Shown: positions 2,020-31,503 of the stretch, one piece after another
How the letters are laid out: each line of letters opens with the position of its first letter
Numbering within the stretch: position 1 is the stretch's first letter
Source: a virus
IMG/VR virus record: IMGVR_UViG_3300049445_000460
Span: 1 to 40,313 of that record
Reading direction: 5' to 3' (one strand)
DNA: 40,313 nt
The notes under the pieces: model-generated
Told to the model about the DNA's origin: nothing
Seen by the model: only the letters and a program-made list of their open reading frames with translations
Database searches by the model: none
Translations under genes and position numbers: made by a program

Positions 2020-3144
2020 GTGAGCCCCGCGGTTAGCAAGCTGGCGGCCGCCCTCTTGGCCTCGATCGAGGAGATCATCGATCGCGGTGTCGAGGAGGCG
2101 GCCGCTGCCGCGCGGGAAGGACTTCGGTCGCCAGGTCGACGTAAGCGCATCGCGCGCCGAAAGACCCAAGGCACCCTAGAGAAGCCAGCTAGTACCGCGC
2201 GGGCCCGGCAGGCGCCCAGGGCCCGCGCGGTGGCCCTCGTTCTGACAGAATCAACCCCACCCCCATCCGAGCCAGATCCGCCGCCGGCGCAAGAAGGGCC
2301 CGCGCCGGCGGCGGCCATCGAGGCGGCATCGGCGTCCCTGCAGGCCATCGAGCGGATCGGCAACGTCCATCCGACCGAGCCGTTTCTGGTTCGGATCCGG
2401 CGTCCCTGGATCGAAGGGAAAGCGACCGAGATCGACCTGGGGCCGATGAAGGCGGTCGGTGCGCCGGCGATCGAGCGCGACATCGCGGTCGTCATCATGG
2501 GAGAGCAGCTCGCCGACGAGGCAGAGGCGACGCCGGCGCGGCCGTCCTTCCTCGGGCCCGAACCGGTGACGGCGATGGTGAGCAGGGCGCTGCGCGACCA
2601 GGTCCTGGCGGCGCCAGCCGAGCAGCTCGAGGACGCGAGCGACGAGGACATCGACGAATTCACCGAGGGCACGCTGGCCTCGAAGATCCGACGCAAGGTC
2701 GCGGCGCGGCCGCCGGCGGATGGCCGGGTCCGATCGAAGACGATCGCGCCGCGCCGGCTGACGCGCGACGAGACGCGGCTGTCGAAGCTGAAGCTCTATC
2801 CGGACGACGTCGACCGGCCGGCGTCGCGCCGCGACTGCTATGGGCTGCCGCGGCCCTGTCCGTTCGTCACCTGCTCCCATCACCTGTACCTCGACGTGAA
2901 TCCGCAGACCGGCGCCATCAAGCTCAACTTCCCGCACCTCGAGGTCTGGGAAATGTCGGAGACGTGTTCTCTCGACGTCGCGGACAAGGGCGGCATCACG
3001 CTCGAAGAGGTGGGCGCGATCCTGAACCTCACGCGCGAGCGCATCCGTCAGGTCGAGGTCCGCGGTCTGGACCGGATCCGGGAGAACGCCGACGAGGACC
3101 TGGGCCTACCGCCCGAGCACGCGCGCGGCAACGATCCGATTTGA
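2020..3144 (+). CDS. Sigma-70 region 4-like DNA-binding regulator
   Basis: The protein has 374 residues from a GTG start. Residues 1-110 are helical, then Ala/Pro-rich. The middle shows no known domain. Residues 255-356 form the recognisable part: a Cys/His segment (C273, C280, C285, H287, H288), a conserved-looking YLDVNP / IKLNFP stretch, LDVADKGG, and a helix-turn-helix with [21 protein letters not shown]. The last segment is the region 4 helix-turn-helix that binds -35 promoter DNA. From memory, the whole C-terminal block resembles a sigma-like protein family frequent in myxobacteria. Regions 2 and 3 are absent, so it is not a complete sigma factor. A role as phage transcription regulator is inferred. 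Confidence 0.7.
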
Positions 3145-3177
3145 CAGCCGCCCCGGGCCGGGAGGAGGATGGCCGCC

Positions 3178-3675
3178 ATGAGACCAAGCGCCGCCCGCAC
3201 CCTTTTTGTCGCACTGACGTTGCTGGTCGCTTTCCCCGTCGGGATCTGGGGGGCCGGCGTTGTCGCCACCAGCGTTCTGTCTGCCTCGGGCTGCGCGCAC
3301 GTCAATCCCGGCGGTTTCGTCTCCTGCATGGCCGACAAGAAGGACGAGGCGCCCGCGATGGCGCTCGTGGAGGCGCTGCTCGACAAGAACGCGCTCGACG
3401 CGCTCGACGCCGCGTTCAAGCTGGCGCCCGACGCGATCCGCTGCCTTCTGGACAAGGCGGCCTCGGTGGTCGGCGCCGGCCCGGTCGAGAATGTACGCGC
3501 GCGCCGCGCCCGCGAATTTTTGGACAGCCACGGGCTGTCGCTGATGCGCTGTGGACGAGCGGCAAGTCGCCTGGCTCATAACCAGGAGAGCGCGGGTTCG
3601 AGTCCCGCCGGCGCTACCATCCTCGCGGGAATCTGTCCGTGGGGCATCTGCGTGGCTGATCTGACCGACGGCTAG
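3178..3675 (+). CDS. Membrane-anchored or secreted hypothetical protein
   Basis: The protein has 165 residues from the ATG at 3178, which lies nine bases after a GGAGGAGG Shine-Dalgarno sequence. The in-frame ATG at 3169 abuts that sequence and is less likely. Residues 8-35 form a hydrophobic segment (FVALTLLVAFPVGIWGAGVV). A Cys follows at an SASGC site that could be a weak lipobox. The middle is an Asp/Ala/Leu helical region. The last 44 codons run through the tRNA at 3545-3619, so the C-terminal residues are dictated by the tRNA sequence. The true C-terminus is doubtful; no known family is recognised. Confidence 0.55.
   Translation: MRPSAARTLFVALTLLVAFPVGIWGAGVVATSVLSASGCAHVNPGGFVSCMADKKDEAPAMALVEALLDKNALDALDAAFKLAPDAIRCLLDKAASVVGAGPVENVRARRAREFLDSHGLSLMRCGRAASRLAHNQESAGSSPAGATILAGICPWGICVADLTDG
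3545..3619 (+). tRNA. tRNA(CAU), initiator-like, with encoded CCA
   Basis: The full cloverleaf can be drawn by hand. The acceptor arms are 3545-3551 and 3609-3615. The D-arm is GAC/GTC (3554-3556 with 3566-3568) and holds G18G19. The anticodon stem is CCTGG/CCAGG around loop CTCATAA, with anticodon CAT at 3577-3579. The variable loop has five bases. The T-arm is GCGGG-TTCGAGT-CCCGC (3592-3608). A73 is followed by encoded CCA at 3617-3619. Position 1:72 is a T-T mismatch and position 11:24 is A:T; both are typical of bacterial initiator tRNA rather than elongator tRNA-Met or tRNA-Ile2. The third G:C pair of the initiator anticodon stem is A:T here. It lies inside the open frame of the preceding gene. 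Confidence 0.82.
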
Positions 3676-3679
3676 CCCG

Positions 3680-4069
3680 ATGGGTCTACCGCTGACCGAG
3701 CTGCTGGAGCAGCTCAAGAACAGGCCGCCGACGCGCAAGGAGCGCCGCCAGCTCAAGGCGGCCCGCGCGCGCGGCAAGATGACGGCCCGGATGCGGCGGC
3801 ACTACGCCGCGAAGGCGATGGAGCGCTACGGCCTCGACGAGCTCGCGCCGGACGGCAGCGTCAGCGCGATCGCACGGATCGCTATGCGCAACGCCCGGAA
3901 GGCCGAGCGGGCCCTGCCGGCGCCGGTATTTCCGGTGACGCGCGCGCCTGGCTGCGCCGAGGCGAAGCGCCTGGCGATAGCCGGCAAGCGGCCGCGGTTC
4001 ATCCTGCGCCAGCACGCCGCGACGTGCGGTAAGTGCCGCACGGCCCTCCTGCCGGTCGGCAATGGCTGA
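3680..4069 (+). CDS. Basic hypothetical protein, 129 aa
   Basis: The protein is strongly basic and helical in its first 60 residues (ELLEQLKNRPPTRKERRQLKAARARGKM). It has a C-terminal Cys pair with a His before it (HAATCGKCRTALLP), a possible half zinc site. The end overlaps the papain-like gene by eight bases. It could bind nucleic acid, but the family is not recognised. Confidence 0.7.
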   Translation: MGLPLTELLEQLKNRPPTRKERRQLKAARARGKMTARMRRHYAAKAMERYGLDELAPDGSVSAIARIAMRNARKAERALPAPVFPVTRAPGCAEAKRLAIAGKRPRFILRQHAATCGKCRTALLPVGNG

Positions 4070-16824: not shown

Positions 16825-19164
16825 GTGGGGGTAGCATTTCGCAGCGCCAACTTCAGCTCGGCGACGACGAATTCGCACTCGCAGTCGCCGCCTGCCGGGA
16901 TCGTCGATGGCGACATCCTGCTGCTGTTCGTCGGAACGGACGGCGTCGGGGCCACCGTCACGCCGCCCACCGGCTTCGCGCTGCTCGGCACGAACACGTT
17001 CTCCGACAACTCGTGGAAGCAGCTCGTTTACTGGAAGCTAGCCGCGTCCGAATCGGGCAGCTACGTCGTCGGCTTCAGCACGTCGGTCTTCAGCGATCTC
17101 GACATCGCAGCGTACAGCGGGGCCAGCGGGACGCCGCAGTACATCGGCAACACTGGCACGGGCACATCCGCTTCGGTCTCGGGCCTGACGATGCCGGCCG
17201 CCGGATCGCTGCTCGTGTTCCATACCGCGTCGGACGTTGGTGTGCGCAGCGGCAGCCCGTCGGGCGGCGGCGGCGGGACCTGGAACAATCGAGAGACCTA
17301 CGACACGAACGTCTACCAAGACGACTCGGCCAGCGTTCCGGCCGGCGCGACCGGCAGCGTCGCGACGGCGTACGCGTCTCAGATCTGGATCGCACAGCTC
17401 GTCGGCCTGTCTCCTCCTATCGTTCAGGTTCCTCCGGCAGCTAGGCGTGTCGTGGACGCCGACGCAGAGGTCCTGCCGCCGCGTCGACCGCGAGTGGCCG
17501 CGGTCCTGGCGCCGGCGCCGGCGGCACCGGACACCGTTCTGCAGGGCGTGTGGCCAGTCGCACTGGAAGCCGAGGAGATCTTCACGCCCCGCGCCCGAAC
17601 CATGATCGCGGCCGTCCTCGCCGTCGTGGCGACAGACACCGTTCTGCGCCCTCCGCCCAGGCCGGTCGACGTCGAGCCAGAGCAAACGTTCCGGCGCCCG
17701 CGTCCGGGGATGGCGCCGCTCCTGCCGCCACCGACGTTCATCCCGGAGGCGCCGCGCCGGCTGTGGGCGGCTGTCGATCCGGACGATCTGCCGCCGCGAC
17801 GTCCGCAGATCGCAGCCGCGATCGCAGCGCCCGACACCGTGCTCTGCCCTCCGGGCCAGGGCGTGATGGCCGAGGAGGCCGAGTACCTGCCGCGCGCGCG
17901 GCCGCCGATCGCTGCCCTGCTCGCCACGGCCGTTGTCGCCGATACGATCCTGCGCGCGCCCCCGCGGCCGGCGCTGCCGCTTGAAGACCAGGTGTTGTCG
18001 ATCAGGCGGCCCGGGATCGCGGCGGTCCTGTACGCGCCCGATACAATCCTGCGTCCGAGCCGGGGCGACGTCCTGTGGCCCGAAGACGATCCGCCGGCCC
18101 CCACGCGCACGAAGATTGCCGCCGCAATCGCCGCGCCCGACACTGTGTTGCGGCCAGGGAGGCGGCTCGAGCTGGCGACAGACGAGGCCCCCCTCGTTCG
18201 AGCCAGGCCCGGTATCGCAGCGGCCATCGCGCCTGCGCCAACGCCAGACGCAGTCCCTGGCGGACTGCGCCTTCACCTTGAGCCATGGCCGGAGGACCTG
18301 CTGCCAGCGCGACGTCCGGGGATCGCGGCGGCCATAGCCGCGCCCGACACGATTCTGCGCCCCTTCAGACGGACCGTAGTTGCCGACGACGACGCGTTGC
18401 CGCAGCGACGCGCAGGGATCGCGGCCGTTTTGGCGACGCCCCCCGCCGTCGACACCATCCTGCGGCCGGGCCGCCGGGTCGACCTGGCGCCGGACGAAGC
18501 GCCCCCGGTTAAACCTCGACCTGGGGTCGCGGCGCTGCTGGCGCCTGCACCTGTCGTCGACAGCGTGCTCGTGGCGCCACGCCCCCGGTCGGCATGGCAG
18601 GACGACGAGGTCCTGCCGGGACGCCGCCCGGCGATCGCGGCGGTCGTTGCCACGGCGCCGGCGCCGGACTACGTCTCGCGCGCGCCGCGCCCGCGGATCG
18701 AGCTGGAGGCCGAGCTGCCGATTCCGCGGCCGCGCCCGGGGATCGCGGGCGTCCTGTACGCGCCCGACTTCATCCCCCGCGCGCCCGTCCGCCCGGCGCT
18801 GACGGATCTCGAGCCGGCGCCCGACCGCCGCCCGCGCCCGATCGCTGCCCTGGTGGTGGCGCCGGCGGCGGACACGGTCCTGCGCAATCAGCGGACGACC
18901 GTTGCCGCGGACGAGGACTGGACGGCGCCGATTCGCCGGCCCGGGATCGCCGCGGTCCTGGCGCCGGCGCCGGCGGCACCGGACACCGTTCCGCAGCGCC
19001 CGGTTCCTCACGTGCCCGTCGAGGAGCTCCACGAGCTGCCGCCCCGGCGGCCGCTCATCGCCGCGGTCCTGGCGCCGCCGCCGATCCCGGCGCCACTGGT
19101 TGTCGACTTTGATTTCGCGGACCAGGACCAGGGACCGATCCGGACCTTCATGACATTCCCGTAG
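16825..19164 (+). CDS. Beta-domain protein with 16 proline-rich repeats
   Basis: The 779-residue protein starts at GTG 16825 behind a GGGAG site. Residues 1-200 form a beta-rich domain related to the preceding protein (IVDGDILLLFVGTDG, GSYVVGFSTSVF, GSLLVFHTASD). From about residue 205 to the end there are 16 tandem repeats of 32-37 residues. The consensus is roughly RPxRxxVxxDEExLPxRRP, then GIAAVLAPAPAxPDTVL. The repeats differ widely from one another, but repeats 1 and 15 share 43 identical bases (17497-17539 and 18949-18991). The last residues are acidic (DFDFADQDQG). A long stalk or fibre that carries the beta domain is the simplest reading. I know of no named family. Confidence 0.7.
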   Translation: MGVAFRSANFSSATTNSHSQSPPAGIVDGDILLLFVGTDGVGATVTPPTGFALLGTNTFSDNSWKQLVYWKLAASESGSYVVGFSTSVFSDLDIAAYSGASGTPQYIGNTGTGTSASVSGLTMPAAGSLLVFHTASDVGVRSGSPSGGGGGTWNNRETYDTNVYQDDSASVPAGATGSVATAYASQIWIAQLVGLSPPIVQVPPAARRVVDADAEVLPPRRPRVAAVLAPAPAAPDTVLQGVWPVALEAEEIFTPRARTMIAAVLAVVATDTVLRPPPRPVDVEPEQTFRRPRPGMAPLLPPPTFIPEAPRRLWAAVDPDDLPPRRPQIAAAIAAPDTVLCPPGQGVMAEEAEYLPRARPPIAALLATAVVADTILRAPPRPALPLEDQVLSIRRPGIAAVLYAPDTILRPSRGDVLWPEDDPPAPTRTKIAAAIAAPDTVLRPGRRLELATDEAPLVRARPGIAAAIAPAPTPDAVPGGLRLHLEPWPEDLLPARRPGIAAAIAAPDTILRPFRRTVVADDDALPQRRAGIAAVLATPPAVDTILRPGRRVDLAPDEAPPVKPRPGVAALLAPAPVVDSVLVAPRPRSAWQDDEVLPGRRPAIAAVVATAPAPDYVSRAPRPRIELEAELPIPRPRPGIAGVLYAPDFIPRAPVRPALTDLEPAPDRRPRPIAALVVAPAADTVLRNQRTTVAADEDWTAPIRRPGIAAVLAPAPAAPDTVPQRPVPHVPVEELHELPPRRPLIAAVLAPPPIPAPLVVDFDFADQDQGPIRTFMTFP
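17440..19080 (+). repeat. 16 tandem degenerate protein repeats
   Basis: Each unit of about 96-111 bases encodes an Arg/Pro start, an acidic centre, RRPGIAA and a D-T-[VI]-L end. The DNA is divergent except for the near-identical segment shared by units 1 and 15, so most copies are old. Confidence 0.75.
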
Positions 19165-28982: not shown

Positions 28983-29210
28983 GTGACGACGCCCGAATTC
29001 GAGCGCAAGGCGCTCGAGATCATGCAGCAGATTCGAGGCTCGAGCGCGCACGTCGTCGAGGTGACCGACACGCTGGTGAGCGCCCGCTGCATCATCGGCG
29101 GAGACGCGTACGAGCTGTCCTTCTCCGCCGGCGCCGGCGTCCGCGACCAGGCGTTTGCTTCCGTCCTGCGTGGCGTCGAGGCCACGCGCGAGAGGTTCGC
29201 GAATGGCTGA
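28983..29210 (+). CDS. Small hypothetical protein, 75 aa
   Basis: It starts at GTG right after a promoter and overlaps the portal gene by eight bases. A helix (FERKALEIMQQIRG) leads into two strands (HVVEVTDTLVSARCIIGG, YELSFSAG) and a final helix. The function is unknown; the position suggests a head-assembly accessory. Confidence 0.65.
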   Translation: MTTPEFERKALEIMQQIRGSSAHVVEVTDTLVSARCIIGGDAYELSFSAGAGVRDQAFASVLRGVEATRERFANG

Positions 29211-31503
29211 TCGCGATCTGCTGCGCGTCTACCACGATCTTCCGATTACCAGCTTCTCGGGCTGGGACAAGGTCTGGCAGATCGAGAGCGTTCTGGGCGT
29301 GCACGACCGCGGGACGTTCCGCGAGTCGGCGATGCTCTGCGACTCGATGATGCGCGACGACCGGATCGCGGCCGTCAGCGACACGCGCGTCTCGGCGCTC
29401 ATCAGCAGCCCCGTCGAGTGCAAGGCCGCCAACCCCCGCGCGAAGGCCGCGAAGATCGCCAAGGAGATCGGCGGCGACGGCGACTTCCCGGGGCTGTGGT
29501 CGCAGATGTTCCCGGCTTCCGTGATCGGCGAGCTGTCCTGGTGGGGCAACTGGCTGGGCTTCGGAATCGCCCAGGTCCTGTGGGACACGACCGGCACGGG
29601 CAACGTCCCGTCGACGGCCTGGTCGTACATGACGCCGAACGGAAAGATGGCGAACGGCTCGGTGCGCCCGGACGGCTACCTGCCGCCCGACATGAGCCAG
29701 CCGTACAAGCCGACGAAGCCGGGCCGCTGGACGCCGCACCTCAAGGTCTGGCATCCGCAGTACGTGTACTGGGACTGGTCGTCGTACCGCTACGTCGCCA
29801 TCTGCGCCGAGGGCGCGGTCACGCTGCCGAACACCGACGAGCAGACGCACAGCGACGGGAAGTGGTTCATCTGGGCGCCGCATGGCTACCAGTACGGATG
29901 GCTCAAGGCGATGGTCCGCCGGGTCGCGCACAAGTACATCATGCGCGGCTGGGACTACCGGGACTGGGCCCGGTACAATGAGCGCCACGGCATGCCGATC
30001 CTGGGCGCCATCACGCCGGCGAACGCGAACGCGCAGCTGAAGCAGGACTTCAAGGACGCGCTCTCGCGCATGGGCAGCGACGCCGTCATTCCACTGCCCC
30101 AGGGCGGCGATCCGAAGGACGGCAACAACTACGACCTGAAGGTCATCGAGGCCGTCGCGCGCACGTACCTGTCTTTCCAGCTGTTCAAGAAAGAGCTCGA
30201 CGACGACATCGCGATCACGTTCCTGGGCCAGAACCTGACGACGGATTCGCAGGGCGGCTCGATGGCGCTGGCGCAGATCCAGGACAAGGTCCGGATCGAC
30301 AAGCGCATCGAGGACGCCGGCATCGACGTCGCCATCCGCAACCAGGTCCTGTGGTGGGACGCCGGCTACAACTACGGCGACCCAGAGCTGGCGCCGATTC
30401 CGCAGCACCAGGTCGAGCCGCCCGAGGACGAGGCCGAGGAGGCCAAGACGCTGCTGGCGCTCGGCCAGGGCCTGCAGGCCATGGAGCTCGGCGCGCCCGG
30501 CCTGCTCGACATCCGCGGCATCGTCGACCGCTTCGGCTACCCGATGCTGTCCGAGGAGGAGCAGGCGGCGCTGCAGGAGGAGAAGCAGCAGAAGGCCCTC
30601 GAGCAGCAGCAGGCGATGATCGAGGCCGGCGGCGGACCGGCGAAGCCGGGCGACGACAAGAAGGACGACAAGGGCGACGACAAGGCGAAGGGCGGCAACC
30701 CGTTTGCGTCCAAGAAGCCGGCCGCGCTGACGGCCGTGCCCGCCCAGATCGCCAAGCAGATCGTGTTCCAGGGGATGCCGATCTCCGTCGAGAACCCAGC
30801 GGGCAGCGAGCGCCACTGGACGGATCACGAGGGCCGCATGGGTGTGACCGTCATGCAGTACGACTACGGGTTCTTCGACGGCATCAACGGCGCGGACAAA
30901 GACGAGCTGGACGTGTACGTCGGCCCCGACGAGAACGCGCCCGACGTGCACGTCGTTCGCCAGCACGACAAGGCGGACCCGACCAAGTACGACGAGGACA
31001 AGGTGTTCGTCGGCTTCGCGGACGCCGGCGCCGCCAAGGCCGCGTACCTCGCGCACCGGGACGACGGCGACGTGTGTTTCGGCGGCATGTCGACGATCCC
31101 CCTGGCGCGGTTCAAGGCCCGGATCGCGCGCCGGCCTGCAGGGGCGACCTCGCCGATTCGCACGCGCACCGACACCACCGCGGCGATCGTTGCGCTGGTG
31201 AAGCGCATCGCCGAGGGCCGCCCGGTCTCGCAGCTGCGGTCCAAGCAAGGCGCCGCGCGCGCCAAGCGCTACCCCGACACGCTGCAGGACAACGGCGTGC
31301 GGCGCGCGGCCGCGCTGTTGGCCAACGACGTCAAGGGCATCGTTGCGGACATCCAATCGGCATCCGGCTACGACGACCTGCGCGAAAAGGTGCTCGCGCG
31401 CTACCGCGACAAGATGCAGCCCGACGAGCTGGCCGAGCTGCTGCGCAAAGTAAACCTCATGGCCCACATGGCGGGCCGCTACACTGCAACCGGAGGACGA
31501 TGA
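29203..31503 (+). CDS. Mu gp29-like portal with C-terminal InPase-like domain
   Basis: The 766-residue protein starts at ATG 29203. Residues 1-440 follow the DUF935/Mu gp29 portal pattern (MCDSMMRDDRI-like N-terminal helix, WHPQYVYWDWS, HGYQYGWLKAMVRRVAHKYI, YNERHGMPI, FLGQNLTT). A Lys/Asp linker (GDDKKDDKGDDKAKGG) is near 485. Residues about 515-645 match the InPase-like domain described in phage polyvalent proteins: ISVENPAGSERHW, YDYGFFDGINGADKDELDVY, VGP, DEDKVFVGFADA and FKARI. The last 120 residues are helical. Portal proteins form the dodecameric DNA channel; the extra domain has no known role in it. The normal family length is near 500. Confidence 0.85.
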   Translation: MADRDLLRVYHDLPITSFSGWDKVWQIESVLGVHDRGTFRESAMLCDSMMRDDRIAAVSDTRVSALISSPVECKAANPRAKAAKIAKEIGGDGDFPGLWSQMFPASVIGELSWWGNWLGFGIAQVLWDTTGTGNVPSTAWSYMTPNGKMANGSVRPDGYLPPDMSQPYKPTKPGRWTPHLKVWHPQYVYWDWSSYRYVAICAEGAVTLPNTDEQTHSDGKWFIWAPHGYQYGWLKAMVRRVAHKYIMRGWDYRDWARYNERHGMPILGAITPANANAQLKQDFKDALSRMGSDAVIPLPQGGDPKDGNNYDLKVIEAVARTYLSFQLFKKELDDDIAITFLGQNLTTDSQGGSMALAQIQDKVRIDKRIEDAGIDVAIRNQVLWWDAGYNYGDPELAPIPQHQVEPPEDEAEEAKTLLALGQGLQAMELGAPGLLDIRGIVDRFGYPMLSEEEQAALQEEKQQKALEQQQAMIEAGGGPAKPGDDKKDDKGDDKAKGGNPFASKKPAALTAVPAQIAKQIVFQGMPISVENPAGSERHWTDHEGRMGVTVMQYDYGFFDGINGADKDELDVYVGPDENAPDVHVVRQHDKADPTKYDEDKVFVGFADAGAAKAAYLAHRDDGDVCFGGMSTIPLARFKARIARRPAGATSPIRTRTDTTAAIVALVKRIAEGRPVSQLRSKQGAARAKRYPDTLQDNGVRRAAALLANDVKGIVADIQSASGYDDLREKVLARYRDKMQPDELAELLRKVNLMAHMAGRYTATGGR

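Follow-up and report, generated by a model that had tools for sequence, protein, structure and literature searches.

An initiator-type tRNA gene with a virus-enriched anticodon stem in a virus contig carrying Mu-like head and tail genes

The window, by which we mean the whole of virus record IMGVR_UViG_3300049445_000460 (40,313 bp, 68% GC), encodes Mu-like head and tail genes (Portal_Mu, the Mu-like gpT major head protein and Gp36) as well as a DUF2586 tail-sheath-like protein, a terminase, ParB-like proteins, a DNA methylase, a helicase and an endolysin. In the ORF at 29155-31503 the Portal_Mu domain (61-436) is followed by an 'InPase' domain of the inorganic-pyrophosphatase type (534-656); similar domains occur in several other phage structural proteins. 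A 779-aa ORF at 16825-19164 contains many degenerate repeats of the type 'RRPGIAAVLAPAPAAPDTVLRPPPRP' and has no PHROG match. No close relative of the phage was found. Its terminase relatives are distant, and the identity of its major head protein to those of known phages reaches about 36% at most.

ARAGORN calls a tRNA-Met(CAT) gene in this record, and the match to the Rfam tRNA model (61.7 bits against a cut-off of 29, E=3.9e-11) excludes chance. It is the single tRNA match in the whole 40.3 kb. The gene is intact, carries initiator identity elements, has an anticodon stem of a virus-enriched type and stands alone. Its parts and its neighbours are listed in Table 1.

Table 1. Features of the tRNA locus (positions in the window)
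Feature	Position	Strand	Basis
Initiator-type tRNA-CAU gene, CCA encoded, sole tRNA of the record	3545..3619	+	ARAGORN, Rfam 61.7 bits
Acceptor 5' strand UGCGCUG: U1 (mismatched), G2, C3, G4	3545..3551	+	sequence
D arm GACG-loop-AGUC, with A11:U24 and unusual C12:G23 and G13·A22	3554..3568	+	sequence, Rfam match
Anticodon arm CCUGG-CUCAUAA-CCAGG; U29:A41, G30:C40, G31:C39	3570..3586	+	sequence
Acceptor 3' strand ending U72, A73, C74-C75-A76	3609..3619	+	sequence
Lipoprotein-like ORF, read in frame across the tRNA; upstream neighbour, probably co-transcribed	3169..3675	+	
Downstream gene, 129 aa, function not assigned by Pfam/PHROG scans	3680..4069	+	

The acceptor stem (UGCGCUG/CGGCGCU) opens with the U1·U72 mismatch and continues with G2:C71, C3:G70, G4:C69, C5:G68, the wobble U6·G67 and G7:C66. 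Positions 8-10 are UGG, the discriminator is A73 and the CCA is encoded at 3617-3619. The D stem (GACG/AGUC) pairs G10:C25, A11:U24 and C12:G23 and ends in G13·A22. The anticodon stem is CCUGG/CCAGG around the loop CUCAUAA.

The lipoprotein-like ORF, which has no Pfam or PHROG match, remains in frame through the whole tRNA to its stop at 3673-3675, and its third-position GC drops from 0.8-1.0 to 0.57 at the tRNA start. No sigma70-like promoter was seen near the tRNA, so read-through transcription is the simplest assumption. The sole match of the protein encoded at 2020-3144 is to C-terminal sigma-70 region 4, and it may be a phage transcription regulator. The protein encoded at 4062-4829 matches phrog_19005. 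Genes in three viral contigs are 39-48% identical to it, and one distant homologue from a phage carries the annotation cysteine protease. Weak matches to this gene were found in two phage records only, and none in 141 genomes of one phylum, in a search run without a positive control. Three viral contigs that share one neighbour gene with the window (L001-L003) contain no tRNA in the DNA examined. An initiator-type tRNA lies directly after the head gene of a distant Mu-like phage (L163:3951-4027), in which the protease and gpT head genes of the window have homologues.

The initial annotation read the gene as a tRNA-CAU with A11:U24 and an unpaired U1·U72, and this is borne out by the sequence, by ARAGORN and by the Rfam score; the UGG that it gave for positions 8-10 is likewise read in the sequence. 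Three lines of evidence back the initiator identity that it proposed: the identity elements, published class frequencies and viral comparison sets. In the census of Ardell and Hou, which classified 9,917 bacterial CAU tRNA genes, A:U at 11:24 is present in 4430 of 4438 initiators and in none of 5479 elongators, neither Met nor Ile2, and U·U at 1:72 in 207 initiators as against one elongator Met and one Ile2 (PMC5143459). The minor formylation determinants are G2:C71, C3:G70, G4:C69 and A73 (PMC9976931), and the window tRNA has these acceptor determinants with U·U replacing C·A at 1:72. The CUCAUAA loop had also been taken as a sign of tRNA-fMet. Most elongator Met and Ile2 genes have the same loop, which does not discriminate between the classes and was dropped as evidence for an initiator.

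That shared loop and the CAU anticodon are what would be expected if the gene encoded an elongator tRNA-Met or a lysidine-modified tRNA-Ile2, and profiles trained on cellular genes do not rank it with the initiators. Such an identity is nevertheless very improbable. The census has almost no U1·U72 or A11:U24 in either class, and the window tRNA has neither the elongator Met features (1:72 paired as G:C or G:U, C11:G24) nor those of Ile2 (1:72 paired, C11:G24). The Ile stem determinants C4-G69, U12-G23 and C29-G41 (PMC9976931) are all missing, their places being taken by G4:C69, C12:G23 and U29:A41. A profile trained on viral tRNAs favours initiator over elongator by 28.7 bits.

The initiator marks co-occur in viral CAU tRNAs far above chance. 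The sample consisted of 106 distinct viral CAU tRNAs with U72 among the matches listed, chosen blind to positions 1 and 11 by a scan pattern that fixed only the anticodon loop, the T loop, U72 and CCA. A11:U24 was present in 26 of the 35 with a mismatched 1:72 and in 5 of the 71 with a paired 1:72 (Fisher p=1.7e-12). The initiators on which the viral profile was trained had been picked by these same marks, and the score of +13.1 bits obtained with positions 1, 72, 11 and 24 left out is the more independent figure; it lies above every viral elongator. On the viral-trained profile the window tRNA falls in the lowest 5% of viral initiators. The cellular-trained profile places it at -2.9 bits, in an empty gap between initiators (at least +51) and elongators (at most -48), because C5:G68, U6·G67, C12:G23, G13·A22 and U29:A41 depart from cellular initiators. 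That profile was rejected as a sole classifier. Judged from its sequence and from the mixed viral and cellular scores, the window tRNA is probably a divergent initiator. The initial annotation held in addition that phage tRNAs with CAU are usually elongator Met or Ile2; viral initiator-type tRNAs proved to be common, with at least 103 distinct sequences, and several cultured phages have them. One viral contig contains two CAU tRNAs 150 bp apart (L085, positions 454 and 604), both with U1·U72 and only one with A11:U24.

The U1·U72 end was considered as a viral hallmark and rejected, as it is the usual end of host initiators in many bacterial lineages. A scan of genome contigs found it in host initiators of, for example, Marinobacter, Legionella, Pedobacter and a Myxococcota genome, and C1·U72 in those of Actinomycetota among others. 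U72 is the rule among the initiators of Lysobacteraceae.

The anticodon stem is another matter. One G:C pair is altered, as the initial annotation had noticed, but the change is to U29:A41, in the orientation U:A, and both G30:C40 and G31:C39 are kept. Positions 29-31/39-41 thus read UGG/CCA and retain two of the three G:C pairs of GGG/CCC. Three G:C pairs do not strictly define initiators, since the first of them is absent from a minority of cellular initiators as well (AGG/CCU in 522 of 4438; PMC5143459); UGG/CCA marks a variant. In IMG/VR this stem was found together with U24, U72 and CCA in at least 119 viral contigs, and 59 of the 73 distinct UGG/CCA sequences among the matches listed combine U1·U72 or C1·U72 with A11:U24. 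D stems of the GACA/AGUC type recur in viral relatives of the window tRNA.

Cellular genomes gave a different picture. With any base allowed at 72, UGG/CCA was found in none of 398 Pseudomonadota and none of 296 Actinomycetota genomes (694 cellular genomes sampled in all). A pattern with an unrestricted stem matched 95 of 120 Pseudomonadota genomes; GGG or AGG occupied positions 29-31 in all but two of its rows, one elongator-like and the other an extra copy in the Lysobacteraceae genome G097. The 103 distinct initiators taken from genome loci have GGG or AGG at these positions, and so do those of Lysobacteraceae apart from the G097 copy. UGG/CCA is likewise not listed among the 4,438 published initiators, for which the printed stem rows sum to 4,423, leaving up to 15 not itemised (PMC5143459). 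Both the viral and the genome scans are samples, and their patterns require the CUCAUAA loop, a five-base variable region and an encoded CCA. Some IMG/VR contigs are proviruses; any host sequence that they hold could only make the contrast between viral and cellular sets weaker. With A11:U24, a non-elongator 1:72, the pairs U29:A41-G30:C40-G31:C39 and a virus genome around it, the window tRNA fits the viral UGG/CCA initiator type. In these comparisons it is the U29:A41 stem pair, not U1·U72, that is the virus-type feature. The extra tRNA of G097 (L424:9166-9242) is initiator-like, with A1:U72, A11:U24 and a GGC/GCC stem, and lies near genes of phage families, besides a normal GGG copy; it is probably part of a prophage.

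The range of stems that viruses use was read from 103 distinct viral initiator-type tRNAs among the matches listed in two scans, chosen blind to the anticodon stem. The pair at 30:40 is G:C in 94 of them. At 29:41, A:U (50), G:C (26) and U:A (24) are all frequent and C:G occurs once, as against 28 of 71 viral elongators (p=5e-12). The stem result is the same after clustering at 85% identity (72 clusters, p=1e-8). At 31:39 there are 64 G:C, 18 C:G and 10 U·G. In the ribosome structure described in PMC11497404, the G30:C40 pair receives a type I A-minor contact from 16S A1339, and 29:41 is reached from its position-41 side by a type II contact of G1338; no A-minor contact is named for 31:39. The constraints on the viral stems fit these known contacts, and we infer that pairs with a G on the position-41 side are excluded and others accepted.

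From its determinants, a path for the window tRNA through the host can be proposed. Host RNase P and 3' trimming would free it from the read-through transcript with its CCA already in place, and host MetRS would charge it by way of the CAU anticodon and A73. The host methionyl-tRNA formyltransferase would then formylate it, because 1:72 is unpaired and 2:71, 3:70, 4:69, A73 and A11:U24 fit. IF2 would bring it to the P site of the 30S subunit, where 16S A1339 would read G30:C40 and G1338 would accept U29:A41. In infection it would supplement, or partly replace, the host initiator pool. The tRNA belongs to a recurrent viral class with a relaxed stem, which keeps G30:C40, avoids C29:G41 and takes any workable pair at 31:39. 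Overall, the gene probably encodes a functional initiator of the bacterial type that adds to or partly replaces the host pool, as a member of this relaxed-stem class. Its transcription, charging, formylation and use by the ribosome, and any selective benefit, are predicted from these features.

The usual explanations of phage tRNAs appeal to codon compensation, a reason excluded here because internal codons are not read by an initiator. A solitary viral initiator therefore isolates some other function, either supplying initiation or replacing an attacked host initiator. Solitude is common: 59 of 102 viral initiators have no tRNA neighbour within 2 kb, as against 16 of 71 elongator-type CAU tRNAs (p=5e-6), and the trend extends to viral initiators with stems unlike GGG/AGG (30 of 61, p=0.002). 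In E. coli, initiators with mutant stems come into use when there is little host initiator or little formylation (PMC7949028, for review), which would fit either high demand or the replacement of an attacked host initiator. An extra initiator during infection would be the most likely and best-supported role.

Other accounts of the gene differ in how they treat its stem and its setting. It may simply be a working initiator under weak selection, freed from the constraint on an essential host gene, in which U29:A41 has no special role. The several pair types at 29:41 and 31:39 and the many divergent positions of the window tRNA agree with this, and we give it somewhat less than an even chance; free drift would also have given C29:G41, which is nearly absent from viral initiators and frequent in viral elongators, and the retention of G30:C40 means that constraint persists. 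Another account has the phage replacing a host initiator that is cleaved or modified by defence systems or toxins (enteric VapC cleaves it, AtaT acetylates it), with the altered stem making a poor target. Initiator-specific toxins do exist (PMC10264068 and its references; AtaT), viral initiators vary at 29:41 and 31:39 where cellular ones are fixed, they are often solitary, and those of Mesyanzhinovviridae-related phages have an altered loop base, U32. This account is unlikely for the window tRNA, whose CUCAUAA loop is unchanged, for published evasion works through changes of the anticodon loop and phages generally do without a tRNA-fMet gene where VapC attacks this tRNA (PMC10264068); no case of a toxin recognising 29:41 was found in the literature searched. 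A bolder view, and a rather unlikely one, is that viruses have evolved an initiator class of their own, often as their only tRNA, with a stem selected for the A1339 contact (G30:C40) and the rest of the '3GC' signature shed, so as to escape host factors that read the signature or to alter the choice of starts.

Two further accounts can be given little weight. The mismatch G13·A22, the wobble U6·G67 and the reading frame through the gene might be taken to mean that it is a decaying remnant, or the footprint of integration into a host initiator gene. This is quite improbable, as the stems are otherwise complete, the CCA is present, its deviations at 1:72 and 11:24 coincide precisely with the marks of an initiator, and the sequence differs at many positions from all host initiators compared. 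An integration-site footprint was rejected, with no second copy of the 3' part of the tRNA found in the record and no integrase among the proteins scanned, which cover part of the ORFs. The initial annotation had suggested that an initiator tRNA could favour the translation, on 70S ribosomes, of many leaderless phage mRNAs. fMet-tRNA is indeed used in leaderless initiation. All routes of initiation use initiator tRNA, however, so that its presence does not point to leaderless mRNAs, and the gene starts speak against the idea. A simple codon model called 62 genes, and no sign of many leaderless mRNAs was seen among them: a Shine-Dalgarno core lies upstream of 42% of them, as against 14% of internal ATG/GTG codons, and 39 of the 62 start within about 25 nt of an upstream stop or overlap it, as suits coupled translation in operons. 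A role in serving leaderless mRNAs is barely credible.

This widespread viral version of the starter tRNA has an anticodon stem that breaks the rule for cellular ones and hints at which parts of that rule the ribosome truly needs. Viral sequences amount to a mutational scan of the '3GC' rule performed by nature, of a kind absent from cellular genomes. In them 30:40 is nearly fixed, C:G is barred at 29:41 and 31:39 varies, a pattern that can be compared directly with P-site structures.

Virus-borne initiators have been reported before. A tRNA-fMet is annotated in Erwinia phage pEa_SNUABM_47, where a role in kasugamycin synergy was proposed (PMC9686651), and phiLM21-like prophages of Sinorhizobium encode one, in some cases as the single tRNA (PMC12429752). 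With that of Stenotrophomonas phage QDWS359, these are virus-borne initiators like that of the window, and sometimes solitary like it. In the literature searched, with partial coverage, the reports on pEa_SNUABM_47 and the phiLM21-like prophages mention neither the UGG/CCA stem nor the viral stem rule; no other description of the stem or of the constraint pattern was found, and no paper dealing with phage initiators and the '3GC' rule. In phages Elanor, PaMx74, DoCa5 and QDWS359 (L390:1484, L392:1488, L393:1484, L394:1484, L395:1484) the terminase gene is directly followed by an initiator-type tRNA, which is unannotated in the first three; the tRNAs of L392-L395 have U32, with the loop UUCAUAA or UUCAUAC.

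Compared with bacterial tRNA-fMet of the U1·U72 type (Marinobacter, Legionella, Lysobacteraceae, Pedobacter, Myxococcota), the window tRNA has the same type of 1:72 mismatch and A11:U24, and both have G2:C71, C3:G70, G4:C69, A73 and CCA, G30:C40, G31:C39 and the CUCAUAA loop. The bacterial tRNAs have G29:C41 or A29:U41, G12:C23 and C13:G22, whereas the window tRNA has U29:A41, C12:G23 and G13·A22. The viral UGG/CCA tRNAs of the cultured Xanthomonas phages Elanor and DoCa5, of the cultured Caulobacter phage phiCbK and of the at least 119 IMG/VR contigs share U29:A41, G30:C40 and G31:C39 with the window and have initiator ends and A11:U24 like it. They differ in belonging to other phage families; their 1:72 may be U·U, C·U or C·A, and some have U32. 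Phage tRNA-fMet genes are thus already known, and the UGG/CCA stem and the pattern of stem constraint appear to be the new part.
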